Assembly: GCA_016186045.1 (NCBI GenBank)
Contig: JACPMJ010000023.1
Coordinates: 1-45,441, forward strand
Source of the DNA: Candidatus Uhrbacteria bacterium
Lineage (GTDB): Bacteria > Patescibacteriota > Patescibacteriia > JACQRZ01
DNA: 45,441 bases
Direction: 5' to 3'
Position 1 is the stretch's first letter. Every line of letters starts with the position of its first letter. The position numbers and the translations under genes are program-made. Below are positions 10,326-28,098 of the stretch, piece after piece. The notes below the pieces were generated by a model. It was given only the letters and a program-made list of their open reading frames with translations. It made no database searches and was not told where the DNA came from.

Positions 10326-11024
10326 TTATTCCTTTAATCTCCTTATTTCCGTCTCGATATCTTTAATAATCTCTGCATTTCCAATTTCACCATCCAAACT
10401 AAAAATAATAAATACCTTGCCCTGATATTTTTTTTCAAAATCAAGAAAATTATTTTTCATTCTTTCCGAGACGGAATAATTGCCGAAATTTGCCTGTGCA
10501 GTAACGGGTTTAATCTGTACGCCAAATGCCTTATCGCCGACAAATCCTAAATAATCTATGTCGCCGGCATGGTCAAGATCATTGTCACTCTCAATAAATC
10601 TTACTTCTGGAAAATGTTTTGCCAATCCGCCATTGACCACTGATTTTTCACGGATAAAACCATCAAAAGTTCTATTGATAGTTAGATTCTTAATATAATT
10701 CTTGCAGTCTTGCAATGATAATTCACTAAAAGCGGCTTGCCATTCAGGGATAATGACTTCTATTATTTTTTCATACAATCGTTCGCCTAATTCCACGAGA
10801 ATTTGCGGTGTCATTTTAACCGGCTTTTTGCTCTCTGTAAATGCTTTTTCAAAATACCATTGTTCCCATTCCTCGATCGTTTTTGGCTGACACTCGCGTA
10901 TAAGAGCCATAACGACTCCGACTTTATTCGGTCGCGATAACTGATATGTTTGGCAGGCATAATTGAGAACTTTTTCTTTTTTGCCAAAATCTTTAGAGTA
11001 TTTTTTATTTTTTTCAGTTCGCAT
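10326..11024 (-). CDS. MjaI-family type II restriction endonuclease
   Basis: A 232-residue protein matching what I know of the MjaI endonuclease family: WEQWYFEKAF near residue 75, LTINRTFDGFIREKSVV, and a long conserved stretch DHAGDIDYLG-VGDKAFGVQIKPVTAQANFGNYS. The D..D...QIK spacing fits a PD-(D/E)XK catalytic site. MjaI cuts CTAG; specificity here is inferred from the family. I start it at ATG 11024, which overlaps the 3' end of the methyltransferase gene by 11 bases. An upstream extension to 11090 would read through the methyltransferase. The modest GC and the position between pyk and lgt suggest acquisition as a cassette. Confidence 0.8.
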   Translation of the reverse strand: MRTEKNKKYSKDFGKKEKVLNYACQTYQLSRPNKVGVVMALIRECQPKTIEEWEQWYFEKAFTESKKPVKMTPQILVELGERLYEKIIEVIIPEWQAAFSELSLQDCKNYIKNLTINRTFDGFIREKSVVNGGLAKHFPEVRFIESDNDLDHAGDIDYLGFVGDKAFGVQIKPVTAQANFGNYSVSERMKNNFLDFEKKYQGKVFIIFSLDGEIGNAEIIKDIETEIRRLKE

Positions 11025-12324
11025 AATTTTGAAATAGACTAATAAATTTCTCTTTATACCTGTAATCCATTTCCCTATCGGCAAACACATAGCCGCCTTT
11101 GATCAAGTGAGCATTAATAAAAGTTTTATTTTGCAAGTATACATAACATAATAAATTATTTTTGTTGTCATATTTCAGATGATCAAATCTTAGAAATATT
11201 CTCTGCTTATTTGTTTTATTTTTAAGATAATCCACGGCATCATTTAATTTTTGCGGATTATTTTTTACACCCAACAATTTAATCACTACATCAGTGTTTA
11301 ATCTTAATGTTTCGGAATCAATTATTTCTTTCACGGTAAAGAACTCATCTCTTTGCTCTCTATTCTCATCTATCCTTGAACCAAATTGCATTTTTTTCGG
11401 ATCTATTTTCTTATCGAGTTTAATAGTGTCCGTAAAAATATACGGGAGTTTAGAAATTTGATCGTTAAAGTCTATATTCAGTTTTTCTTGGTTAATCAAA
11501 TCTACATTTGAATTATTAAACATTCTGCCCGTATCAACATCCAATTTCTGTTTTATACTATCAATAAACTTGGTATTTATTTCATAGCCAACAGAACTGC
11601 GTCCTAATTTTTTTGCGGCCAATGAGGTCGTGCCACTGCCAACGAACGGATCGAGTACGGTGTCTCCGGCGAATGAAAACATTTTTATTAATCTTTTTGG
11701 TAACTCCTCGGGGAACATGGCAATATGTCCGTCTTGCCGCACTCCGTTAAAATTCCAGTGCCCCTGAAAATAAGTATTCCACTCCTCTTTTGTCATTTTA
11801 GAAAGCTCTTTCATGTTTTTATCTATTTTCTCCGGAATTCCGTTTTTCTTAAACAGCAAAATAAATTCATAATCAAGTTTGATTATGCCATTTCTTGGAA
11901 AAGGAAACGACCCCATGATTGTAGCCCCTCCGGATGTGTTCATTGTGGTCGATTTTTGCCATATAATCGCTCCCATATAATCAAACCCGATGGTTTCGCA
12001 AAATTTGATTATTTCCGTTCTGATCGGAATGATTTTATATCTGCCATAATACACAGACCTCGCGAATTGATCTCCGATGTTAATGCATAAACGACAACCA
12101 TTGTGTAATACTCTATAACATTCCTGCCAAACTATATTCAAATTATTTATATACTTTTCATAACTGTCATTATACCCGATTTGCTCATCGGTTCCATAAT
12201 CTTTCAATTGCCAATAGGGAGGCGAAGTTATCACCAAGTGTACAGAACTATCAGACAGTTCTTTCATGTACCTTGAATCGCCTCGTATAATTCTATGATT
12301 TGTTTTTATATCATGTATTGTCAT
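11014..12324 (-). CDS. Type II DNA methyltransferase (N4-C/N6-A) with a thermonuclease-like C-terminal domain
   Basis: A 436-residue modification partner of the endonuclease. Motif IV TSPPYW (about 34-39) precedes motif I DPFVGSGTT (about 225-233), the beta-class order. TSPPYW is typical of N4-cytosine enzymes, which fits CTAG modification. Residues about 340-436 look like a staphylococcal-nuclease-type OB fold (VVIKLLGV, KTNKQRIFLRFDHLKYD, LLCYVYLQN, INAHLIKGGYVFADRE). The catalytic Arg/Glu set is not evident, so that part may only bind DNA. The start lies six bases after pyk, without a Shine-Dalgarno, so it may depend on the pyk transcript. Confidence 0.85.
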   Translation of the reverse strand: MTIHDIKTNHRIIRGDSRYMKELSDSSVHLVITSPPYWQLKDYGTDEQIGYNDSYEKYINNLNIVWQECYRVLHNGCRLCINIGDQFARSVYYGRYKIIPIRTEIIKFCETIGFDYMGAIIWQKSTTMNTSGGATIMGSFPFPRNGIIKLDYEFILLFKKNGIPEKIDKNMKELSKMTKEEWNTYFQGHWNFNGVRQDGHIAMFPEELPKRLIKMFSFAGDTVLDPFVGSGTTSLAAKKLGRSSVGYEINTKFIDSIKQKLDVDTGRMFNNSNVDLINQEKLNIDFNDQISKLPYIFTDTIKLDKKIDPKKMQFGSRIDENREQRDEFFTVKEIIDSETLRLNTDVVIKLLGVKNNPQKLNDAVDYLKNKTNKQRIFLRFDHLKYDNKNNLLCYVYLQNKTFINAHLIKGGYVFADREMDYRYKEKFISLFQNYAN

Positions 12325-17286: not shown

Positions 17287-17982
17287 TCATACAGAAGGAG
17301 ATATGATTCGATCGGGCATTCGTTTAGCCGCTTCATGTACGAATTGAGAAAAGCTTTTCCGTTGCCCCCAAAGCTCAAGAAGGAACTTTCTAAATTCCTT
17401 ATGCAAAGGATATCCTTTGTCATCTATTGGAAAAATAGATGCAAATTCTTTATTGAGAATAACAGTCATTGATTCTCGCAAAAATGAAAAATGTTCTTCA
17501 TCGATAATTTGGAGCAGTTCATCTTTATAATAATATTCAAATTGCATATGCAAGAGTTCATGAATGAACGATCCAATCTGCCATTGATCATCTTTATCAT
17601 GGATCATCCAAATATAACCCGATTCAGTATTATAGGGGCCGCGAGGAAATGTTGTAATGAATCCCGTAAAATCATTGCGGTATAGAGATTTCTCCGTAAT
17701 CCGTTCCATGATAGAAAAAATTTTATTACTCACCCCACTTAATATCTGCTCAAGATGTTTTGCATATTTTAATAAGGCTTTATCTTCAACGGCATACTTT
17801 TCTTTTAGAAATGATTCAATTATCTCAGCAATCTCCTCGTTATTCTTATTGATCATTTTTTCTTTCAAAAAAATTGGAATACAACATTCCCATAAAATAC
17901 CATGAGATTGTTTCTTTGTTATTGCTTGCATCCAATTGTCTAAATCATTTCTAAAATTTATTCTAACGACGATATATGACAT
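17287..17982 (-). CDS. Putative zinc metallopeptidase (HELLH), 231 residues
   Basis: The protein has HELLH at residues 141-145 within SFIHELLHMQFEYYY, the zinc-binding and catalytic motif of zincin peptidases. An Glu in SFLRES (about 170) lies at a distance that fits a third, gluzincin-type ligand. The first 135 residues are helical and unassigned. No signal peptide or membrane segment is seen, so it should act in the cytoplasm. It follows the terminator of the radical SAM/Cys-rich peptide unit, with a TATAAT (17991-17996) so close to the ATG that a leaderless transcript is possible. A role as leader peptidase for that peptide is an inference from position only. Confidence 0.65.
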   Translation of the reverse strand: MSYIVVRINFRNDLDNWMQAITKKQSHGILWECCIPIFLKEKMINKNNEEIAEIIESFLKEKYAVEDKALLKYAKHLEQILSGVSNKIFSIMERITEKSLYRNDFTGFITTFPRGPYNTESGYIWMIHDKDDQWQIGSFIHELLHMQFEYYYKDELLQIIDEEHFSFLRESMTVILNKEFASIFPIDDKGYPLHKEFRKFLLELWGQRKSFSQFVHEAAKRMPDRIISPSV

Positions 17983-18079: not shown

Positions 18080-18211
18080 TTAGCCGATGCAAGCGATGCA
18101 GTCGGTATTGCAGTCAGTACCGACGCACTCAGAATCATTTCGGGATTGGAGTGTCGTTTCATCAGCCGTTATGATGCCCAGTTGAGCCATGTCGGCCTTC
18201 ATTTCAGACAT
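18080..18211 (-). CDS. Candidate Cys-rich RiPP precursor, 43 residues
   Basis: A tiny ORF with an ideal ribosome binding site (GAAAGGAGGTAAGGTAC-ATG). It overlaps the last eight bases of the radical SAM gene and is followed by a strong terminator. The leader-like part (1-27) begins MSEMKADMAQLG. The end, ECVGTDCNTDCIACIG, carries all four cysteines (29, 34, 38, 41; C-x4-C-x3-C-x2-C) among Thr, Asp and Asn. This is the layout of sactipeptide or ranthipeptide precursors, in which a SPASM radical SAM enzyme links Cys sulfur to a carbon of a nearby residue. No homologue is known to me. An ORF this small is normally missed by gene callers. Confidence 0.85.
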   Translation of the reverse strand: MSEMKADMAQLGIITADETTLQSRNDSECVGTDCNTDCIACIG

Positions 18212-19616
18212 GTACCTTACCTCCTTTCTCTGTGTATTCACACAGTAATTTTATGCCTTGTAGACGTACGATTCTCGGAATAAGCGATCGGAATGTCTGA
18301 CAGTACGGGGATGGTACATTAAGTCTGCCGAATTGTTTTATAGTAAACACCGGGCAACCGCCAGCGCATACGTTTTTCCAAATGCATTTGCCGCAGTCAG
18401 TAGAATCGTCAATGCCTCTTCCTCTCAATTCAGGCATTATTTCCTGAGATCGAACTGACTCAACTAATCCGTCACTATCGACGTTTCCAATCGGAGTATC
18501 AAAGATCATTTGACAAAGTGCAATCTCGCCATTGTGAGCAATAGCCGCAGATGCATTGCCAGTGCCGCATGCCCTTGAAATTGATCTGCCAATATCAATA
18601 TCGCAAAGCTTTACGTTGAAATCCCAATTTTTTTTGAACATCCATGCATCAATGCGATCAAAACACTGATGAAGAACCTCTCTGTACCTTTCTGATGATT
18701 GAGCAAGATTTTGCACGGACATCTGCTCACAATCACGGACAAGACTATAACGAAAGCTTAATCCTTGACTGAGAAGATAGTCCGTAAGTTCCTGCAAACC
18801 ATCAATATTATTGTCAGTAATAGTTACCAATATGAATGGCTTCCCGCCTGCCGCCTCTAATATGTGAAAACCTCGCACTACGTCAGCAAACGATCCCCTT
18901 CCATTGATATACGCTCGTTGTTTATCGTTTACTTCGCTAATGCCGTCTAAAGAAATGGCGCATGAAATGCGATTTTCAACGAGATATTTTGCGATATCTT
19001 TAGTGATCAGGGTGCCGTTAGTCACGATGTTGAACGAGGGAGTAATCTCTACGGAATCACATACCTTCTGTGTGAAGTTGACAACATGTACTATATTTTG
19101 CCACACCATCAGCGGCTCCCCGCCGGCAAACTTGATTGCCAGCTTCGTTATCCCGTATTTTGCGCATTGTGCTACGACGTTTGTTATGGTTCTTTCAGCA
19201 ACTGACAGCGCCATATTACCTCTATCTTTATCTATATAGCAATATGAGCATCGAAGATTGCACGCGTTGGTCACGTGTAGCCAAATGCCAAACGATTTTT
19301 CTTTTTGAATTTCATGATATGAACGCTCGCGCTCCACATTATAAACATTCAAGACCTGCTCTTTTTCAAGAGCCAAGATACTAAAAAATATCTCTTTCTC
19401 TTCATAATCCTGCGCCACCAATAGCGCACAAACTTCCGAAATTGTTCTTTGCCCATTACAGGCGAAAAAAATTGCTTGCGCCCTTTGATCTAAGAGGAGA
19501 GATTTATGATCACCTCTCGCTTTATAAATGAGAAGATAATCTCGTATCTTATCCTTATGGAGATACGGCATCTCAACGGGAATTTCATTTCCGATAGGTA
19601 TCCTAAGAGTATCCAT
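18204..19616 (-). CDS. PqqD-like/radical SAM/SPASM peptide maturase (RiPP unit 2)
   Basis: A 470-residue maturase. Residues about 22-95 resemble a PqqD-type recognition element (LLDQRAQAIFFACNGQRTISEV). The radical SAM core has CNLRCSYC (C119, C123, C126), FAGGEPLMVW, VTNGTL and SLDG. The SPASM domain shows CGTGNASAAIAHNGEIALC, CGKCIWKNVCAGGC and a final Cys in SPYC. This is the composition of thioether-forming sactionine/ranthionine synthases. I set the start at ATG 19616, with TTGGAGG seven bases upstream. A TTG-initiated frame to 19676 would begin inside the promoter. Unusually, its precursor gene follows it, overlapping by eight bases, so translation is likely coupled. Confidence 0.9.
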   Translation of the reverse strand: MDTLRIPIGNEIPVEMPYLHKDKIRDYLLIYKARGDHKSLLLDQRAQAIFFACNGQRTISEVCALLVAQDYEEKEIFFSILALEKEQVLNVYNVERERSYHEIQKEKSFGIWLHVTNACNLRCSYCYIDKDRGNMALSVAERTITNVVAQCAKYGITKLAIKFAGGEPLMVWQNIVHVVNFTQKVCDSVEITPSFNIVTNGTLITKDIAKYLVENRISCAISLDGISEVNDKQRAYINGRGSFADVVRGFHILEAAGGKPFILVTITDNNIDGLQELTDYLLSQGLSFRYSLVRDCEQMSVQNLAQSSERYREVLHQCFDRIDAWMFKKNWDFNVKLCDIDIGRSISRACGTGNASAAIAHNGEIALCQMIFDTPIGNVDSDGLVESVRSQEIMPELRGRGIDDSTDCGKCIWKNVCAGGCPVFTIKQFGRLNVPSPYCQTFRSLIPRIVRLQGIKLLCEYTEKGGKVHV

Positions 19617-19666
19617 GAGCACGCCTCCAATTCTGATTGTCAAGGTACCTTCAAACTCTTGACTAT

Positions 19667-19696
19667 ACTGTACCAAAATAGCATAAACTGTGTCAA
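19667..19696 (-). promoter_or_regulatory. Sigma-70-like promoter of RiPP unit 2
   Basis: -35 TTGACA (19691-19696), 18 bases, -10 TACAGT (19667-19672) on the minus strand, about 45 bases before the maturase start. Confidence 0.6.
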
Positions 19697-19768: not shown

Positions 19769-19972
19769 TTACTTGGATTGTATGGGTTCGAGACCATACA
19801 CTCGCTTGAGGGTATGTTGTCTAGTGCCCTTGCCCTCGCAGTCTACCATGTAGATCTCCGTAAGGATCTCCGGACAAAGTTTGAGTGGATCGACAGGTAC
19901 CAGAGTATACGGCTGATCGTATCCCTCTGGCGTCGGAACCTTGATGTAGCAGATCGGACGACCTTTCGCCAT
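19769..19972 (-). CDS. Small protein consisting of a stand-alone MAKGR domain, 67 residues
   Basis: A 67-residue protein, second gene after the coiled-coil protein (12-base gap, AAAGGAGG before the ATG). It aligns along its whole length with the first 65 residues of the 582-residue protein at 26250-27998. Shared positions include MAKGR at the start, LVP-VDPLKL near residue 24, an ILT-IY-VD block, and T...K-V-G-E near the end. The domain is not one I can name. Its use as both a separate small protein and an N-terminal fusion suggests a targeting or assembly tag common to the genes of this block. Confidence 0.8.
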   Translation of the reverse strand: MAKGRPICYIKVPTPEGYDQPYTLVPVDPLKLCPEILTEIYMVDCEGKGTRQHTLKRVYGLEPIQSK

Positions 19973-19984
19973 CTCTCTCCTCCT

Positions 19985-21343
19985 TTAGGATGCCTGCGGT
20001 TGCGCCGCTTGTTCGCGGGATTGGATGAACTGTTCTACCGCATCGGGGATGACATCGCCGCCCCCTTTCCACTCTCCATCCCAGATGGGGAATGAGGCGA
20101 TGCGGTTCCGTACCGCGGAGATGCACCGAAGAAGTCCGTAGTCGGAACTTCCCGGAAGAGTGGCCGCTTTCTGACTGAATGACCTATCAATCATGGCCTG
20201 CAGAAAATCCGCCTTTGTTTTGAAAGCGGGATCCTGACTCGCCGCGCTCATTACTCCGGAATGGCCGAACTTTTGACCGTACCAATCACCATCGTTGAGT
20301 TGATTGATCCGTCCTCTCTGATCTTCGGATAAGACGAACTGAGAGGATGATGGTGCCTGATCCGCTGAAGGGGATGGCGAAGAACTTACCGAGCCGGAAA
20401 AAGCGAGAAGAACTCGCCTGTTCCCTTTACGACGAGAATTTCCATCGCCTTTCTTGGATTTCGCCGTCGACTTTGCCGGCTTTACCTTGAGTGCCGTCTT
20501 AGTCTGGAGCATTATTCCAAGAATCTCCGCCGCCTTGATGAGAGTTTCGATATCTTGCGAAAGAACTTTTTGCTTTCCAGCACCGTTCTTTTGCTCTTCC
20601 ATTGTCTTTCTCAACACGGCGACATCACGCTCAAAGCTCTCCACCATTTCGCAAACTTCATCGCGCTTTTCGATGAGCGCCTTATACTCACTCATCTTAT
20701 TCTGCGCACGTTCTACGTCAGAAAGATCAGTTGAGCTCAAGTTTCCCTTGATCTCATTGAACATCTTCTTGATATTCTCTTCAAGTTTGGCACGCTCTTG
20801 CCTTGCCACCTTGAGGTCTACCTGCGTACCTGAAAGCTTCTCCGCAAGGTTGCCGGCAGAATTTACAAGCGTGCCCAAACGATCCCGCTCTTCCTCTAGC
20901 TCATTCAGCTTGTATGTGAACGACCCAAAAAGAACGTTATGGACGGAAACTTGGGGTGACAAGACAGGAGAAGGGCTCGCCGACTGTTGATCAATCTTTC
21001 CCGCCGCCTGCATGACAAGCGAAAACTTGCGATTTGCGACTTGCAGTTCGGTAAGAGAGCGTTTGTCCATTTCTAGATATTTGCACCCCGTCTGAATAAG
21101 CGCATCCTTCAACGCGCTCTCCATGGAATCCGACGTCTTGTTCTTGAACTTTGGCTCTCCCAAAAGAGCGGTTAGCCACTCTCCCAGAGAAGCATCCGGC
21201 CATGCTTGAGACCATCCGAAAAAGTGCGAGAGTAGCTCCCTGTTACGCCTCACCGGCACAAAGTGCTGTAGACGGAATTGAAATTCTGGCTTGTTCCAGT
21301 TTTCTGAAAGCCACATACGAACATGAGAGACGAACGCGTTCAT
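19985..21343 (-). CDS. Coiled-coil protein of the GHKL block, 452 residues
   Basis: No family recognised. Residues about 1-115 form a compact N-terminal domain rich in Trp/Phe (FFGWSQAWPDASLGEW). Residues about 140-270 are a long coiled coil with heptad-like Leu and many Lys/Glu. Then come a Lys-rich low-complexity linker (about 285-310), a Ser/Pro linker, and a C-terminal domain of about 105 residues with DWYGQKFG and DYGLLRCISAVRNRI. No signal peptide or membrane segment is seen. The start has AAAGGAGAAAG upstream and a perfect consensus promoter at 21417-21445. The architecture suggests an elongated scaffold or tether acting with the small MAKGR-domain protein that follows it. Confidence 0.75.
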   Translation of the reverse strand: MNAFVSHVRMWLSENWNKPEFQFRLQHFVPVRRNRELLSHFFGWSQAWPDASLGEWLTALLGEPKFKNKTSDSMESALKDALIQTGCKYLEMDKRSLTELQVANRKFSLVMQAAGKIDQQSASPSPVLSPQVSVHNVLFGSFTYKLNELEEERDRLGTLVNSAGNLAEKLSGTQVDLKVARQERAKLEENIKKMFNEIKGNLSSTDLSDVERAQNKMSEYKALIEKRDEVCEMVESFERDVAVLRKTMEEQKNGAGKQKVLSQDIETLIKAAEILGIMLQTKTALKVKPAKSTAKSKKGDGNSRRKGNRRVLLAFSGSVSSSPSPSADQAPSSSQFVLSEDQRGRINQLNDGDWYGQKFGHSGVMSAASQDPAFKTKADFLQAMIDRSFSQKAATLPGSSDYGLLRCISAVRNRIASFPIWDGEWKGGGDVIPDAVEQFIQSREQAAQPQAS

Positions 21344-21416
21344 GGTATCTTTCTCCTTTCAATATCCTTGATTGTAAAAGAAACGCCCGCATATGGTCTA
21401 TGCATACGCTCTCCCC

Positions 21417-21445
21417 ATTATACACCATATGTAAAATCCTGTCAA
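21417..21445 (-). promoter_or_regulatory. Perfect consensus sigma-70 promoter
   Basis: TTGACA (21440-21445), exactly 17 bases, TATAAT (21417-21422) on the minus strand, driving the coiled-coil/MAKGR operon. It is the only full-consensus promoter I saw, which suggests high expression. Confidence 0.85.
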
Positions 21446-21459
21446 GGGGTTCGTCTTCA

Positions 21460-21488
21460 TAAAAAAACCGCTGTTAAAAACAGCGGTT
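21460..21488 (-). terminator. Terminator of the Rossmann-like gene
   Basis: Ten-bp stem AACCGCTGTT/AACAGCGGTT with a three-base loop and seven Ts on the minus strand. It begins at the stop codon of the gene at 21487-22581. Confidence 0.85.
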
Positions 21489-22581
21489 ATGTGCCGAGAC
21501 TGATCTCTCGGGGCTTGAATTTTGTATATAGAGATTTCCGATACCAAATGATACTCCGACCATACATGATATCCTCATGCTGGTCGTAATCCTTTCGGTA
21601 TCCCTTTTGGTCAATGAACGTAAGCGGCGTTTCAACAAAACGCCTCAGCGTCTCAACGACCCACAAACGCAATTCCATTGGATTCGTTGAGATATTCTCA
21701 AACTTTGCGAAATAGCATTTCTGGGACCAAACATGATCTCCACGATAAATGAGATGTCTAAGATCGCTGATATGAATTCCACAGTACGGAAACTGCGTCA
21801 TAACAGCGCGTTTTTCAGGATTCGAGTAAGTACTCAACTGTCCAATGGCTTTTTGAAGGGCATCGAATCTCATCGGCGTTTTTTTGAAAGACAGCATGTA
21901 TGCCCAAATAAACGCCTCACATGAGAGCAGCTTATTCAAATGCTCATGTGGCGCCATTCCGTGCCGACACGTCGCCGCGCACGCATGCTCCATATGGCTT
22001 CGAATCCAAAAAAGATCGCGAAGCACGAGCGAGAATGCGTTTTCATATCCTGCTTCCGCATATCTCTTCTCCAGTGTCGCGATGCACTCCTCGGTCTCAT
22101 CCGGAGCAAGCCACAGCAGAATTGCCAGTGAATATATGCCCTCAAAAAGCATATACTCGTCATGTCCCACCGTGGTGTATGTTGCCACCGCTGTTTCTGG
22201 AAACCAGAGACAGTAAAGAAGCACTTCGGTAAGAGAAGGGTCCAGGTTGTGGCGAAACGTTCCCTCGATATCCAGATTCAGAAAGGCAAAACGGTTTTCT
22301 TTGCGCAGGTGAGACATAAGAAATTTTTTCATATCCTGATAGCGCAAATGTATGCCCAAATCCAAATCCCGCTGTATGTTGTATACGCGCAGGTCATTTT
22401 CAATGGAATAAATCCTGTTGTGTTGCACGCCAAACGCGTCAAGATATGGTATCTCCCGCGGCTCTTCTCCCAGAAGGAGAAGGATCGCCGCTGACCTGAT
22501 CTGGATAGGGGTGAGCGCGTTGGTCAGATACTCGCGATACAGTATGTCTCGAGCTGTGTTTTTGCCCGGTGTCTGTAACAT
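21487..22581 (-). CDS. Rossmann-like, possibly methyltransferase, protein of the GHKL block, 364 residues
   Basis: No named family. Near the N-terminus the order of elements fits a class I methyltransferase-type Rossmann fold: an amphipathic helix, HNRIYSIE ending a beta strand with an acidic residue, then FAFLNLDIEG as a strand with Asp followed by Gly. Glycine-rich motif I is not obvious, so catalysis is uncertain. The C-terminal 200 residues are helical, with several Cys/His (HACAATCRHGM). The ATG at 22581 is chosen for AAAGGAGGCGAAGG; a longer frame to 22635 lacks a start signal. It is divergent from the HTH/GHKL operon across a 200-base region with back-to-back promoters, suggesting shared control. 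Confidence 0.7.
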   Translation of the reverse strand: MLQTPGKNTARDILYREYLTNALTPIQIRSAAILLLLGEEPREIPYLDAFGVQHNRIYSIENDLRVYNIQRDLDLGIHLRYQDMKKFLMSHLRKENRFAFLNLDIEGTFRHNLDPSLTEVLLYCLWFPETAVATYTTVGHDEYMLFEGIYSLAILLWLAPDETEECIATLEKRYAEAGYENAFSLVLRDLFWIRSHMEHACAATCRHGMAPHEHLNKLLSCEAFIWAYMLSFKKTPMRFDALQKAIGQLSTYSNPEKRAVMTQFPYCGIHISDLRHLIYRGDHVWSQKCYFAKFENISTNPMELRLWVVETLRRFVETPLTFIDQKGYRKDYDQHEDIMYGRSIIWYRKSLYTKFKPREISLGT

Positions 22582-22625
22582 CCTTCGCCTCCTTTCATTG
22601 AATTTTAAAGGTACAAAACAAAGTA

Positions 22626-22654
22626 AATAAAGCACAAAATGAATAAAATGTCAA
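22626..22654 (-). promoter_or_regulatory. Promoter of the Rossmann-like gene
   Basis: -35 TTGACA (22649-22654), 17 bases, -10 TTTATT (22626-22631) on the minus strand. It is 18 bases from the divergent -35 at 22672. Confidence 0.55.
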
Positions 22655-22671
22655 GCGCCGGTCCAAAGGTC

Positions 22672-22700
22672 TTGACATTATCCCCAAAATAGGATACACT
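22672..22700 (+). promoter_or_regulatory. Promoter of the HTH/GHKL operon
   Basis: -35 TTGACA (22672-22677), 17 bases, -10 TACACT (22695-22700), followed by a leader of about 75 bases and a strong Shine-Dalgarno (AAGGAGGACACA) before the ATG at 22780. Confidence 0.75.
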
Positions 22701-22779
22701 CACCCACGAACTCAATACAAACCGTATTGGCACGTTCTTTACAATTTAGGAACTACACAACAACGATAAGGAGGACACA

Positions 22780-23997
22780 ATGGGCACGCACGCCCCGGCC
22801 CTCTCCAAACTCGACGCTGTTGAGGAAAAAATCCTGCGACTCATCCCTCTTCAGGATGAACTTCGCGAATTGGCAGCGGCATATGTAAAGCGCCAGAAGA
22901 TAACGGTGGGAGAATTTGGAGTCCGTTGCGGTGGAACATGGAAGGATGCAAAAGGTTTCCTTGATGGAAAGCGAGCTCTAAGCAGGGGCCGTTTTCTCAT
23001 GGGCCTTACTATCCTTCTCTCGCGGGAAGATCTCTATGACAAGATAGAGAAAGAAGCGGCAGACCTTCAGGATCGACAGATTTCTGTTGCTCTGTTTCCG
23101 GATCCTGTAGTGCGTACGATCTTCAAGGTTTTGAAAGCGCACACTCGCAGGTCGGAAACAGTAACGCGTGCGATCTTTTCCCAAGCATTCAGTCCGCATC
23201 ATGAAACAGTGCTGGAATTGTTTGTTTTGTCGCATGAAGCGCTTGAAAAACTTCGCGACGATAAAACACGCGCGGCAATTGATCTCATCGTACAGAACGA
23301 TGGCGTTCTTGACACAGAGATCGAAGCTCAACTACAAAGGTATCAACATCGAGTAACTGATCTTACTCGAGTTATTGAGCGCCTATCTCGAACGCTCCTG
23401 CCGTACTATCAGGGACAGTACAAACTACTCGGAGAGGCGCTCAACATTCCTGAAACTTCATTCCAAGGAGCTCGCCAAGGCAAATCAAGCGAAGCATATC
23501 TGACTGAGCTGATCGAGAAGATGCGTGTACTTGCACAGCTTCATGGCGTCGGCGAACATATCCTCAAAGACATACCTGCGAAAAAAGAAACGCCGGCAGA
23601 TGCAACGCAGGAAAAACCAAAGAAGGAAATTGCCCCAATCAAGGAGATATCTCCACCACCGGCTCCGGCAAATGAAACGAAACTCACCGAAGCAGGAGGC
23701 GTGATAGCGCTTGATGGAACGCAATACTGCATTACTGCGGCTGACCTTGACTCTTTGTCCCTTCAAAATTCCGAGGGCTATATCGCATGGACAACACAAG
23801 CGCTCGAAATCGCCCGTTGGGCGCTCAACATCGGAACAAAACTCAAGGATCCGGTCATGCGAGGAAAAATCCGAAAGGCGCTTTCCAAAGAAACGCGTGA
23901 ACTATACTTTTCCATTCAAGCTTTTGAAATGGAATATCCTGGAGTCATTGCGCCGTTACTTGATGCCCAGCGCACAACATTCCTTGGCAAGGGATAG
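22780..23997 (+). CDS. HTH-like protein preceding the GHKL ATPase, 405 residues
   Basis: First gene of a two-gene operon. Residues about 38-78 (ITVGEFGVRCGG...KGFLDGKRALSRGRFLMGLTILL) resemble a Cro/C1-type helix-turn-helix. A second, weaker copy of the pattern may lie around 225-260 (LGEALNIPETSFQGARQGKS). The middle is helical. Residues about 268-300 are a Lys/Pro/Glu linker, and a C-terminal domain of about 100 residues follows. It is cytoplasmic by appearance. The GHKL ATPase starts 16 bases downstream. It may be the DNA-binding or regulatory partner of the ATPase, but DNA binding is inferred from pattern only. Confidence 0.7.
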   Translation: MGTHAPALSKLDAVEEKILRLIPLQDELRELAAAYVKRQKITVGEFGVRCGGTWKDAKGFLDGKRALSRGRFLMGLTILLSREDLYDKIEKEAADLQDRQISVALFPDPVVRTIFKVLKAHTRRSETVTRAIFSQAFSPHHETVLELFVLSHEALEKLRDDKTRAAIDLIVQNDGVLDTEIEAQLQRYQHRVTDLTRVIERLSRTLLPYYQGQYKLLGEALNIPETSFQGARQGKSSEAYLTELIEKMRVLAQLHGVGEHILKDIPAKKETPADATQEKPKKEIAPIKEISPPPAPANETKLTEAGGVIALDGTQYCITAADLDSLSLQNSEGYIAWTTQALEIARWALNIGTKLKDPVMRGKIRKALSKETRELYFSIQAFEMEYPGVIAPLLDAQRTTFLGKG

Positions 23998-24013
23998 GGA
24001 GGAGAAGACGCCC

Positions 24014-26161
24014 ATGGGACATACAACCAAGACGGCCTACGAGGTACAAAACAGTGTAGGCCAGGACTTCGTGGAACAACATCTGAAGGGACGACCCGTT
24101 CCTCACGGAATCATCGAGGGAGTGATCAACAGCATCTTTGCGGATGCAACAAGCGTGGAAATCACAACAAACGGAAAAGAACTCACCATTCTGGATAACG
24201 GCCACGGCCTTATCGGCACTGGCCAGTATTCCAACAAGAACGGTATCCTGCGACCCGGAGACTCTCCGGGCAAATACAGTGACAACAAAAAGAGTGGAAA
24301 AGGGAATAAAGGTACCGGCATCAAGACACTCTATGTAAACTGCCAGGAAATCGATCTGCTCTCGTCAGTAGCAGATGAACAGCCACGCGGAGCCGTATAC
24401 TCGATCTCTTTCTCGCATGCCGAGTATTTCGCATCACTCAAAACCGGTGCGAAACCGCTCGTCTACGAGGTAGAGCCGCTCACGACACAGTCATGGCCGT
24501 ACATCAATAAATTCCGAACCGGCCTGTGTCTGCGAGTATTGCTGAAAAACAAACTCCCATACACTCCGACACGCCTTGCAAAGGGACTCATGGCCCGCCT
24601 TCTCTCCAAATATCGGGATCTCGGAATTGTCCTGGTAAACGGAGAGCGGCTTCCGGAACGCGTACTCATTGGGGATTACGCACAGTTTGATGATCCGCAT
24701 GAGACGCTCGGACATATCACGGCAGAGTTCTATAACGCTCATCCGGATGACAAGGTGAGCGAAGATGAGCTTCGTGTCGGTGGCAGGGTAGTTGCAGAAG
24801 GGCCATTCAAGGCATTCTTCCGGATACTTGACGACAATCTCAAAAAACTCATCCCACTGCTCTTTCGCAATACAGATGAGATCTGCGGCTCTATCATCAT
24901 TCCGTTCTTCGAAGACTATTCCAATACGGACAGAGAAACATTCTCTTCGGTGCGAGAGCTTCCAGACGGAAAGATTATGCGCCTCTCAGATGATCCTAGA
25001 GCATTGACATTTATCGAATGGCTCCAGGATATAGAGCCGGAAGTTCGCGAAACACTCAAGATCACCCTCTCCAAGAAGGGTGATTCCGAAACCAGTGAAA
25101 AGGTGGTTTCGGAACTTCGCGACATGATCAATAGTGCAACAGGCGGTCCCGTGGTCATGAAAAGAAAGGGACCAAAGAAAGATCTCGAAGATCTCCCGGT
25201 TCCAAAACCGCCCAAACCACCCCAAAAAGTTGTAGCTCTTAGCCTCACACCAGATCGGGGAGAGGACGGAGAATACGAGATGGGAGAACAAGTCATCATT
25301 CGGGCTCGTATTCGGCGAGACCTTCAGGACACGTACTCGCGGAAGGATATCAAGTTTCATACCTACCAAACGAACTGTGGAAATATTGTCGAAACAGATG
25401 ACGGACTTTCCATGGTCGCGAATAAATACGGACAGGCAAAACTTGACGCGGAGCTTGTTGGCTCTTCTCATCGTCCGGGATTCACTCGCTACTCCGTGGT
25501 TCGGATACGAGAGTTCAAGATTGCAAAACCCGCGAAAACGATCAAGGTGGGCGAAACATTCAGGCTCACGTGCATGAACACCGACAAGGCAAAGGAACCA
25601 TTTACCTGGGCCCCAAGCCATGCGGATGTTGGCACGCTCGAACCGGATGGATGCGAAGCCCTCTTCACCGGAACAGCCAAAGGGGAGGTGATCATCAGGG
25701 TTGTTGACTCTTCCCGTCCTTCTCAACTATCGGAATGCACGATAACAGTTGTAGAAGAGGAAGAAAAAAACCCCATTCAGAACATGATCAAACTCGAGGA
25801 TGAAAACGGAGAGATCAGACACTTTATCTACTGGTTCCGCGGGATCCCTCGGGAACTGTCTGGGGATAAAGTGAAATCAACCCAGCCAATCCAAATGCTT
25901 GCCGGAGGAGACGGCAGTCTCGAGGAACCATACAACTTCTCCATCCATCAACATGCATATGGTTTTGAAGAGGCGGAGAAAAGAGGAAAACTTCTGGACT
26001 TCCTCTTCATGGCAATATGCGAGGAGTTCCCATACTTCATGCATTTTGAGAGCGCTCAACGTGACATGGAGTACGAAAGAATTCCGACAAACGCATGGCC
26101 TAGCCTTCGTGAAGCGCTTGCAAACGAAGGCAAAAAGCTCTACGCCCGCATCCTGTCGTAG
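24014..26161 (+). CDS. GHKL ATPase fused to two Ig-like domains, 715 residues
   Basis: The N-terminus is a complete Bergerat fold as in MutL, Hsp90, MORC and topoisomerase VI-B: N-box E35-x3-N39 within EGVINSIFADA, G1 box DNGHG (61-65), and G2 box GKGNKGTG (95-102), where GxGxKGxG forms the ATP lid. A transducer-like region follows to about 390. After a Pro/Lys linker (KPPKPPQK, about 405) come two beta-rich, Ig/BIG-type modules: VVALSLTPDR...EMGEQVIIRARI (about 410-500) and AKPAKTIKVGETFRLTC...GEVIIRVVDSSRPS (about 505-585). The last 120 residues are a separate alpha/beta domain. No export signal is seen, so the Ig-like modules are cytoplasmic. The start follows GGGAGGAG after the upstream stop; an in-frame extension to 23711 overlaps the HTH gene and is rejected. 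Confidence 0.85.
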   Translation: MGHTTKTAYEVQNSVGQDFVEQHLKGRPVPHGIIEGVINSIFADATSVEITTNGKELTILDNGHGLIGTGQYSNKNGILRPGDSPGKYSDNKKSGKGNKGTGIKTLYVNCQEIDLLSSVADEQPRGAVYSISFSHAEYFASLKTGAKPLVYEVEPLTTQSWPYINKFRTGLCLRVLLKNKLPYTPTRLAKGLMARLLSKYRDLGIVLVNGERLPERVLIGDYAQFDDPHETLGHITAEFYNAHPDDKVSEDELRVGGRVVAEGPFKAFFRILDDNLKKLIPLLFRNTDEICGSIIIPFFEDYSNTDRETFSSVRELPDGKIMRLSDDPRALTFIEWLQDIEPEVRETLKITLSKKGDSETSEKVVSELRDMINSATGGPVVMKRKGPKKDLEDLPVPKPPKPPQKVVALSLTPDRGEDGEYEMGEQVIIRARIRRDLQDTYSRKDIKFHTYQTNCGNIVETDDGLSMVANKYGQAKLDAELVGSSHRPGFTRYSVVRIREFKIAKPAKTIKVGETFRLTCMNTDKAKEPFTWAPSHADVGTLEPDGCEALFTGTAKGEVIIRVVDSSRPSQLSECTITVVEEEEKNPIQNMIKLEDENGEIRHFIYWFRGIPRELSGDKVKSTQPIQMLAGGDGSLEEPYNFSIHQHAYGFEEAEKRGKLLDFLFMAICEEFPYFMHFESAQRDMEYERIPTNAWPSLREALANEGKKLYARILS

Positions 26162-26179
26162 TAGTTCCAAAAATCCAAA

Positions 26180-26208
26180 TGCTCCGCAATAATAAACGCG
26201 GAGCTTTT
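26180..26208 (+). terminator. Terminator of the HTH/GHKL operon
   Basis: Perfect stem GCTCCGC/GCGGAGC with a ten-base A-rich loop, then TTTTT, 19 bases past the stop. Confidence 0.85.
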
Positions 26209-26211
26209 TAA

Positions 26212-26242
26212 TAAAAAACCCGTTCATTCCGTTGAACAGGTT
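26212..26242 (-). terminator. Terminator of the 582-residue gene
   Basis: Stem AAACC-GTTCA/TGAAC-GGTTT with one mismatch, then a T run on the minus strand. It sits back to back with the GHKL terminator between convergent genes. Confidence 0.75.
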
Positions 26243-26249
26243 TACGATG

Positions 26250-27998
26250 TCAATCTTCGAACTCTAGAGAGTCTTCCGACCCTTTTGACCTTGGATCTTT
26301 AGAGTAGCAGTCACATCTGGCTTCTTCTCTGCAGATCTTTTTTGCCTGCAGAACTTCGTCCGTCTCAATGCCATGTTTTTCCATGAGACGGATCGTATCA
26401 GGAGCCGCACGCTTTGCGAACTTGAGTGGCCACCACCCCCTCTTGTTCTCATCCTTTTTCTTCTCAAACGTCACCCAGCGAACACCTTGAGCTGTTTCCC
26501 ATGCCGCGATAAGATCCTCCTTCTTTTGCATGACAAACTTATGACATTCTCCCTGCGCACGTGCGCGCTTTGAGATTGATGTTCGCAAAGACGGGATGTC
26601 TTTTTCCGTGATAAGCCCTCCGCATACGGAAAGCTTAGAGGCGACATGAAGCATGGAATGTATGCCTCGGCATGTATTACTTTTGTGATTGCATGTCAGG
26701 ACATATCCCACACAGCAGATGATCTCATAGATGTAGTCAATGAGCTCATCGTCAAAATCATTGCCGCCATTTGAGGATGAAGCATGGGAATGTCCGATTG
26801 AACCACCGACTTCCGGAAGTTTGTCTTTGACTTTTTCTATCTGAACCTTGGCGAATTCAAGCGCCTGCTTTACTTTTTCCGGAAGCTGCGGAGGATCTGT
26901 CTTCAGGAGACGCAATATCTCTTGAGTTTTTGCTCCGACAGTCTGAAAGCACGTTACCCCTGTCCATGGAGTTTTTTCTGCTTCCTCAAACTGCTCTTGC
27001 GTGCAGATATCGTCGCCTTTGAGCTGATATGGCTTGAGAGTGGTAGAAACAAGTTTTTCTGCATACTCGCAAAAATCCCCAAGACCATGGTCAAGCTCGC
27101 TCCTCAAGCGAGTGATAGTCTGATTCACTCCCGAAATTTTGGATAATGTTTCTTCCTTGAGGACATGCCACTCATCATGAACTTTTCTTTCAGAGACCTG
27201 AAGCTCATGGACAACGTTTTCAGCTCTTTCAAGCAGACAAGAAGCATCTTCGCTTGAATATGATGAAGAGTCAGCAACGTATGCGCTCGCGAACTTGCGA
27301 AACTCTCCGTCCCGTCCAATACATGCAAGGGCGCGGCTGAATTGTTCGTCTTCCGCGTTCTCCATGTGCTCCCAGGTGCCGCATGCGAGACTGACATCCG
27401 CAAGGACACCGTCAAGAAGTTGATAGAGCTCCTTGATCTCTCCAAGTGCGCGAACAATCATGAGAACCGCCTGTGACCAGTTCTTAAGAAATTGTTCACG
27501 CGTCTCATCCACTGCTTCCGCGTTTGAAACCACGATATCCGCGACTGAAAGCTGTGAGGTGATGCGCAGTGCGACGTTTCGCACCTTTCCAGTAAGCGCG
27601 TTCGCGACCTTTTCCGCTTCATCCATCGCGCCCTGACCGATCATGTCAAAGAGCTGAGGAAGTTCTTGCTCAAAGACTCCAAGAAGTTCAATGATATGTT
27701 CGCCGACATCTCCATGGTCTCCGACGAGCTCAAGAGCAAGTTTCTGCATTTCAACCCGAAGAATGGATACGATTTCTGTCGTATCCACGTACTTACGAAT
27801 GACATGTTCAATCCCGAGTACTTGCTTAAAGACTCTTGATCCGGTTTTCTTGGTATCCTTGTGGTCTACCTCGAATATGTTCGTTAAGACCCCTAAGTGA
27901 AGTTTCAAGGGATCCACATTCGGAACAAGATGAATTCCGTCAGGCTTGATCGGAATCTTCAGAAAATACATGGGGTCATCAGAGCGGCCTTTTGCCAT
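26250..27998 (-). CDS. MAKGR domain fused to a long helical protein, 582 residues
   Basis: Residues 1-65 are a second copy of the small protein at 19769-19972. They share MAKGR, LVP..VDPLKL, VLT-IFEVD and K-V-GIE. The rest (about 70-400) is almost entirely helical, with long charged segments. The C-terminal part is Cys/His-rich: YEIICCVGYVLTCNHKSNTC near 435-455 and CREEARCDC near 560, which could bind zinc. No membrane segment or signal peptide is seen. The start has AAGGAGGGG before ATG, and the promoter at 28070-28098 overlaps the end of the neighbouring ligase gene. I know no family. It converges on the GHKL ATPase operon and probably works with it. Confidence 0.75.
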   Translation of the reverse strand: MAKGRSDDPMYFLKIPIKPDGIHLVPNVDPLKLHLGVLTNIFEVDHKDTKKTGSRVFKQVLGIEHVIRKYVDTTEIVSILRVEMQKLALELVGDHGDVGEHIIELLGVFEQELPQLFDMIGQGAMDEAEKVANALTGKVRNVALRITSQLSVADIVVSNAEAVDETREQFLKNWSQAVLMIVRALGEIKELYQLLDGVLADVSLACGTWEHMENAEDEQFSRALACIGRDGEFRKFASAYVADSSSYSSEDASCLLERAENVVHELQVSERKVHDEWHVLKEETLSKISGVNQTITRLRSELDHGLGDFCEYAEKLVSTTLKPYQLKGDDICTQEQFEEAEKTPWTGVTCFQTVGAKTQEILRLLKTDPPQLPEKVKQALEFAKVQIEKVKDKLPEVGGSIGHSHASSSNGGNDFDDELIDYIYEIICCVGYVLTCNHKSNTCRGIHSMLHVASKLSVCGGLITEKDIPSLRTSISKRARAQGECHKFVMQKKEDLIAAWETAQGVRWVTFEKKKDENKRGWWPLKFAKRAAPDTIRLMEKHGIETDEVLQAKKICREEARCDCYSKDPRSKGSEDSLEFED

Positions 27999-28069: not shown

Positions 28070-28098
28070 ACTCTACACGATATCTTTTTTCTTGTCAA
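28070..28098 (-). promoter_or_regulatory. Sigma-70-like promoter of the MAKGR-fusion gene
   Basis: -35 TTGACA (28093-28098), 17 bases, -10 TAGAGT (28070-28075) on the minus strand. It is embedded in the last codons of the O-antigen-ligase-like gene. Confidence 0.65.

Follow-up and report, generated by a model that had tools for sequence, protein, structure and literature searches.

Comparison with Described Systems

MORC and paraMORC ATPases occur in restriction-modification loci (Iyer et al. 2008, PMC2292703), the GHKL-bearing Shedu protein VcSduA protects against phage (PMC12137116), and CapK, an HTH-STAS-GHKL kinase, and CapS, a STAS-wHTH repressor, are encoded upstream of immune operons (PMC13373217). 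Immunoglobulin (Ig)-like domains have in turn been proposed as sensors of invaders in BREX PglZ and in DndH (PMC12839542). Here, we describe a cassette in a 45,441-nucleotide stretch of Candidatus Uhrbacteria bacterium (assembly GCA_016186045.1, contig JACPMJ010000023.1; hereafter the window, at its full length) whose conserved core encodes a helix-turn-helix (HTH) protein, a GHKL ATPase with two Ig-like modules, and a helical protein. Defense in Patescibacteria is poorly known, and the cassette is a compact, conserved, and testable module in which cytosolic Ig-like domains and a helical subunit are combined with a MutL/MORC-type ATPase. No earlier description of it was found in the open-access literature.

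The cassette resembles each of these systems in part. Like prokaryotic MORC and paraMORC loci (PMC2292703), it has a MutL/MORC-type GHKL ATPase with further C-terminal domains, a sporadic distribution, and signs of lateral transfer, but it lacks the S5 motif, and Ig-like modules together with a new helical partner take the place of an SFII helicase, restriction-fold nuclease, or DNA methylase, none of which is present in the core or among its immediate neighbors. GHKL families of defense systems (MzaB, Tiamat TmtA, and BbrUII-type restriction enzymes) match the ATPase weakly. MzaB and TmtA share the GHKL domain (profile matches of 1.9e-5 and 1.6e-3, respectively), yet the similarity is seen in only one or two of eight members and none of the six window proteins matches their partner families; an MzaB match above the cut-off together with other MZA proteins was not found. 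PADLOC gave no convincing family match for the core proteins, only weak GHKL or coiled-coil matches. VcSduA likewise places a GHKL ATPase within a defense protein (PMC12137116), but it ends in a PD-(D/E)xK nuclease, whereas no such domain was recognized in the cassette and the Shedu DUF4263 nuclease domain was not found in its proteins. CapK and CapS (PMC13373217) share the pairing of a GHKL protein with an HTH protein and an accessory distribution, but the STAS domain was not found in the cassette proteins. PglZ and DndH (PMC12839542) have a cytosolic Ig-like beta-sandwich in a defense setting, and PglZ also has tandem HTH-like units; their enzymes are nevertheless different (phosphatase and helicase-like), and no homology to the cassette was seen.

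A Three-Gene Core Conserved in Gene Order

A sequence-only reading of the window had proposed an undescribed system of six genes around the GHKL/Ig ATPase. All six open reading frames were located and are contiguous, and good Shine-Dalgarno sequences were seen for the window genes, in agreement with its claim of strong ribosome binding sites. The existence of a multigene system is supported, but its extent is smaller than had been proposed: the conserved core consists of three genes. These encode, in order, the HTH protein (405 amino acids [aa]; 22780..23997, + strand), the GHKL ATPase (715 aa; 24014..26161, +), and the helical protein (582 aa; 26250..27998, −), whose gene is convergent to that of the ATPase. 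Start codons were refined to the ATG at 24014 for the GHKL gene and the ATG at 22581 for a divergent Rossmann-like gene.

The same arrangement is found in Candidatus Uhrbacteria nzgw337 (G004; contig JAHFHK010000023.1), a member of the same family in a different genus. Its ATPase is 26–28% identical to that of the window over almost its entire length; an HTH gene precedes the ATPase gene, and a convergent helical gene that begins with a MAKGR-like sequence comes after it. A GHKL-only profile built from these two ATPases and run on 381 genomes of the class identified four further loci, in genomes G646, G593, G648, and G568. Each of the four carries a third gene in convergent orientation, with statistical support for homology in three, and an HTH gene is directly upstream of the GHKL gene wherever the contig reaches that far. 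Four of six loci were thus discovered without any use of the third gene. ATPase homologues are found in six genomes: these five and G055.

Searches with phmmer relate the window HTH protein to the product of the gene immediately preceding the GHKL gene in G593 (E = 1e-31), G646 (4e-26), and G004 (1e-4), and a profile search relates it to that of G568 (4e-4). In leave-one-out profile comparisons, the third proteins of the window, G004, G646, G593, and G648 are homologous (E = 7e-18 to 5e-45). The third gene of G568 agrees by position, size, and helical nature only (E = 0.036), and a helical gene in G055 compares with this family at E = 0.018; homology is not claimed for either. When the 381 genomes were searched with a third-protein profile, it picked out the same six as the ATPase profile, namely those of the window, G004, and the four further loci. 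Because the profile was built from those six members, what is informative is that it matched nothing in the remaining 375 genomes. The sequence-only reading had named homologues "scattered and never together" as the outcome that would count against a system; that outcome was not found because the GHKL, HTH, and helical genes recur together, in the same convergent order and in other genera and families.

Several weaker matches were set aside. Those in G056 and G041 are to unrelated proteins, and in the 54 genomes of the phylum matched by a seven-row profile, most inspected cases resemble MutL or GyrB; the matches in G267 and G297 adjoin DNA methylases. A more distant HTH-GHKL pair (G100:C54, L066 1922-5190), in which no Ig region was recognized and which is followed by a coiled-coil/winged-helix gene, is a possible sister system elsewhere in the phylum.

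Features of the Core Proteins

The ATPase comprises a GHKL domain, a transducer-like region, two Ig-like modules, and a C-terminal domain. The ATP-binding domain (aa about 20-135; 24071..24418, +) has the N-box (E35-N39), DNGHG (61-65), and the glycine-rich lid GKGNKGTG (95-102), exactly the motifs that had been reported for it, and thus the three signatures of the superfamily (N-box, DxGxG, and glycine-rich lid). Pfam HATPase_c_3 matches above its cut-off (E = 1e-5), and confident recognition of the six window proteins by Pfam, PADLOC, PHROGs, and NCBIfam is limited to the GHKL domain. The nearest solved structures by profile search are MORC2 (4e-11), MORC3, Mlh1, PMS2, and MutL, in matches that cover the ATP-binding domain only. 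A clamp of the MORC/MutL type, as had been suggested, is plausible from the best matches to MORC2, PMS2, and MutL, but the MORC-defining S5 motif, GhXhhpXXRhl, was absent under a strict pattern search from all members that reach that region, and membership in the MORC family was rejected on this basis. Nor was a full-length MutL with its C-terminal endonuclease/dimerization domain seen: Pfam gives the HATPase domain alone, and NCBIfam mutl matches are weak. Where MORC/paraMORC restriction systems have an S5-fold domain after the GHKL domain, the ATPase has a conserved region (aa 136-315); the AlphaFold model has a predicted local distance difference test score (pLDDT) of 33.

The two Ig-like modules (aa about 403-580; 25220..25753, +) had been proposed from the window alone. 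Matches of the Ig/PKD type at about residues 400-580 are weak, yet they recur in several family members. Identity in the Ig-like region is 17–33%, compared with 20–28% for the ATPase core, and because the two are about equally conserved, the Ig-like region is taken as a functional part of the protein and not as decoration. Hoc-like and tail-type matches in this region are each confined to single members.

The HTH protein has Cro/C1-like HTH segments at its N-terminus and center, then a linker and a conserved helical C-terminal domain. Support for its HTH nature is a weak match to Pfam HTH_26 in one homologue, together with repeated HTH-like segments: the N-terminal and central segments are homologous from locus to locus, and the G593 protein carries a third copy related to the central segment of G646 (p = 6.5e-5). 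These repeats are consistent with a tandem array of Cro/C1-like HTH units.

The product of core gene 3 is helical and cytosolic, and it is a subunit without recognized relatives. Its N-terminal MAKGR domain (27804..27998, −) is similar to a 67-aa protein encoded nearby (42% identity, E = 6e-10; profile E = 1.3e-7), as had been claimed. Conversely, the cysteines of its reported Cys-rich end are mostly unconserved among homologues. Membrane segments and signal-like starts are absent from all six window proteins.

Distribution and Genomic Sites

The cassette is present in 2 of 11 genomes of the family and in 6 of 381 of the class (about 2%). No two loci have the same flanking genes, which outside the window were named by reading their sequences: the window has radical SAM and O-antigen ligase, G004 has aspS and DUF192, G646 has uvrA/uvrC, G648 has hppA, G568 has an RNA methyltransferase-like gene, and G055 has tig at an HTH-GHKL-Ig pair. 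Congeners G648 and G055 have hppA genes that are 89% identical; the site downstream of hppA holds the cassette in G648 and a Rossmann gene and a helical gene in G055, where these genes run into the contig end, which limits the comparison of this site as a hotspot. The divergent HTH-GHKL-Ig pair of G055 is on another contig. Because flanks differ at every locus and the congeners differ downstream of hppA, the cassette is accessory.

Promoters, Terminators, and Palindromes

Promoter-like sites precede three of the window's transcription units: the HTH-GHKL operon (22672..22700, +), a coiled-coil/MAKGR operon (21417..21445, −; 12 of 12 consensus positions), and core gene 3 (28070..28098, −). Such sites are not enriched in the region (8 vs. 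8.6 in shuffles), whereas terminator-like sites number 15 compared with 8.5 ± 3.1 in shuffles. Paired terminators had been predicted, and a back-to-back pair (26181..26243; 26181-26204 and 26216-26243) does separate the convergent core genes. An inverted repeat, AATGTCAAG-15-CTTGACATT (22647..22679), arises from the -35 boxes of the two divergent genes, which face outward. The palindrome CAATACAAACCGTATTG (22713..22729), located a short way past the -10 of the HTH-GHKL promoter, is suggestive of an operator or a leader hairpin. Several cassette promoters have palindromes 8-12 bases past the -10 (combined p = 0.016 over 12 leaders), and the same test on 24 control promoters gave p = 0.88. The sequences of the leader palindromes vary, and most do not reach significance on their own; as a group, they are suggestive of autoregulation or leader hairpins and of nothing further.

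Predicted Function and Alternatives

We suggest that the cassette is a horizontally exchanged accessory module of some Patescibacteria that most likely acts against invading DNA as an ATP-driven clamp or silencer, a reading to which we assign a probability of about 0.45. A role against foreign DNA is preferred because of the patchy distribution, the turnover at sites, the GHKL precedents, and the Ig-like sensors proposed in PglZ and DndH. MutL/MORC-type GHKL ATPases dimerize upon ATP binding and can trap DNA. By analogy, the multi-HTH protein would bind DNA and recruit the ATPase via its conserved helical C-terminus, and ATP binding would cause the ATPase to dimerize and close around DNA, as in MutL and MORC. 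The Ig-like modules may hold or recognize a protein, either the helical third subunit or a protein of the invader, and the helical subunit may then bridge or block the trapped DNA, resulting in silencing or immobilization. The Rossmann, coiled-coil, and stand-alone MAKGR genes would then be extras that can be exchanged for one another. Partner contacts, the target, and the defense outcome are all predictions of this scheme. A bolder version, in which an HTH-guided, Ig-bearing GHKL complex and its helical subunit clamp and silence foreign DNA without cutting it, as a new type of prokaryotic immunity in ultra-small bacteria that parallels MORC silencing, is rather doubtful. If DNA were clamped or silenced, the cassette would connect MORC silencing in eukaryotes to the restriction-associated MORC relatives of prokaryotes and offer a simple system for study.

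Several results weigh against a defense role. In none of the core proteins was a nuclease, a toxin, or any other known effector domain recognized, and partly for this reason the probability is set at 0.45. No defense island surrounds the other loci examined, and the cassette was not found in phage, plasmid, or viral contig collections, the viral scans being for exact short peptides. In the G004 ATPase (L005 8168-10258), the N-box and DNGVG are kept but the lid is degenerate (AIFCTGSK vs. GRxGxGxK), and ATP turnover may therefore not be universal. AlphaFold models from two-row alignments (pLDDT 33 and 38) gave no usable structure of the transducer region or the dimer.

Other functions were considered. 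The adjacency of HTH and GHKL genes at all loci, the candidate palindromes past the -10, and the precedent of CapK and CapS (PMC13373217) would suit a stress-responsive regulatory module in which the GHKL protein, as a sensor of a ligand or of DNA damage, controls an HTH repressor of its own and neighboring genes. We consider this unlikely since the STAS domain is missing, the ATPase is MutL/MORC-like with Ig modules and not a SpoIIAB-like kinase, the palindromes are unlike in sequence and mostly insignificant singly, and a large third subunit that a pure regulator does not need is conserved. The proximity of the ATPase to MORC2/MORC3 and MutL/PMS2 structures and the lack of membrane segments in any protein are also consistent with a chromosome-organizing or DNA-repair module, whether as an alternative MutL or as the bacterial equivalent of MORC/SMCHD1-type compaction; restriction of the cassette to about 2% of the class and two genomes of its family, its differing sites and their turnover, and the missing MutL nuclease and MORC motif make this distinctly unlikely.

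Varied flanks, site turnover, and the Hoc-like and tail-type Ig matches could reflect cargo or a remnant of an integrated mobile element or provirus that serves that element. This is improbable: no integrase, capsid, or replication genes were recognized beside any copy, the collections of phages, plasmids, and viruses lack the cassette, and the Ig matches report fold only. It is similarly improbable that the complex is an Hsp90-like chaperone or an assembly factor for a protein complex, in which the Ig modules would serve as arms for clients. Hsp90 is among the proteins with the GHKL fold, and there is a sacsin-type N-terminal match (E = 2.4e-7), but profile scores put MORC and MutL ahead of HtpG, and a role on DNA is favored over one as a chaperone because the HTH partner is constant.

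Genes Adjoining the Core

The three remaining genes of the proposed set differ from the core in their distribution. The coiled-coil gene (19985..21343, −) has its own promoter and, aside from the window's own genome, no homologue in 57 relatives; downstream of it is the gene of the 67-aa stand-alone MAKGR protein (19769..19972, −), and both are local additions. A role of the 67-aa protein as a peptide precursor for the neighboring radical SAM enzyme was considered and rejected on account of its sequence match to the N-terminal domain of core gene 3. The divergent Rossmann/methyltransferase-like gene (21487..22581, −) is a possible optional partner, with similar genes at the G646 and G055 loci. 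All three Rossmann genes have h-E-x-D ... LDxxG, typical of Rossmann folds, and pairwise comparisons gave p of about 0.03 (window-G055) and 0.002 (G055-G646), with window-G646 not significant; they may represent one family. A six-gene unit was rejected given that homologues of the coiled-coil gene are missing from the 57 genomes, the window's own aside, and the Rossmann gene has only weak candidates elsewhere. In G646 (L022 1738-7004), a divergent operon adjoins the cassette and encodes a Rossmann protein, a small protein that repeats the C-terminal domain of the Rossmann protein (6.7e-11), and an 862-aa mTERF-like repeat protein. This stand-alone small domain parallels the MAKGR pair of the window.

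Other genes are located at a greater distance. About 7 kb from the core, in the window only, an MjaI-family endonuclease (6e-27) and an N6/N4 DNA methylase form a Type II restriction-modification pair (10326-12324, −); the methylase frame runs on into a staphylococcal-nuclease-like domain (3.8e-5). At 18080-19676 (−), a radical SAM/SPASM peptide maturase has as its best NCBIfam match a PapB-type ranthipeptide maturase (1.2e-49, below the cut-off). The small frame directly after it, with the Cys-rich end SECVGTDCNTDCIACIG, resembles the precursor of a ribosomally synthesized and post-translationally modified peptide, and this pair is followed by a HELLH-motif protein (17287-17982). In G568 (L026 12775-13436), several kilobases from the cassette, two overlapping small genes resemble an MNT nucleotidyltransferase and its HEPN partner.

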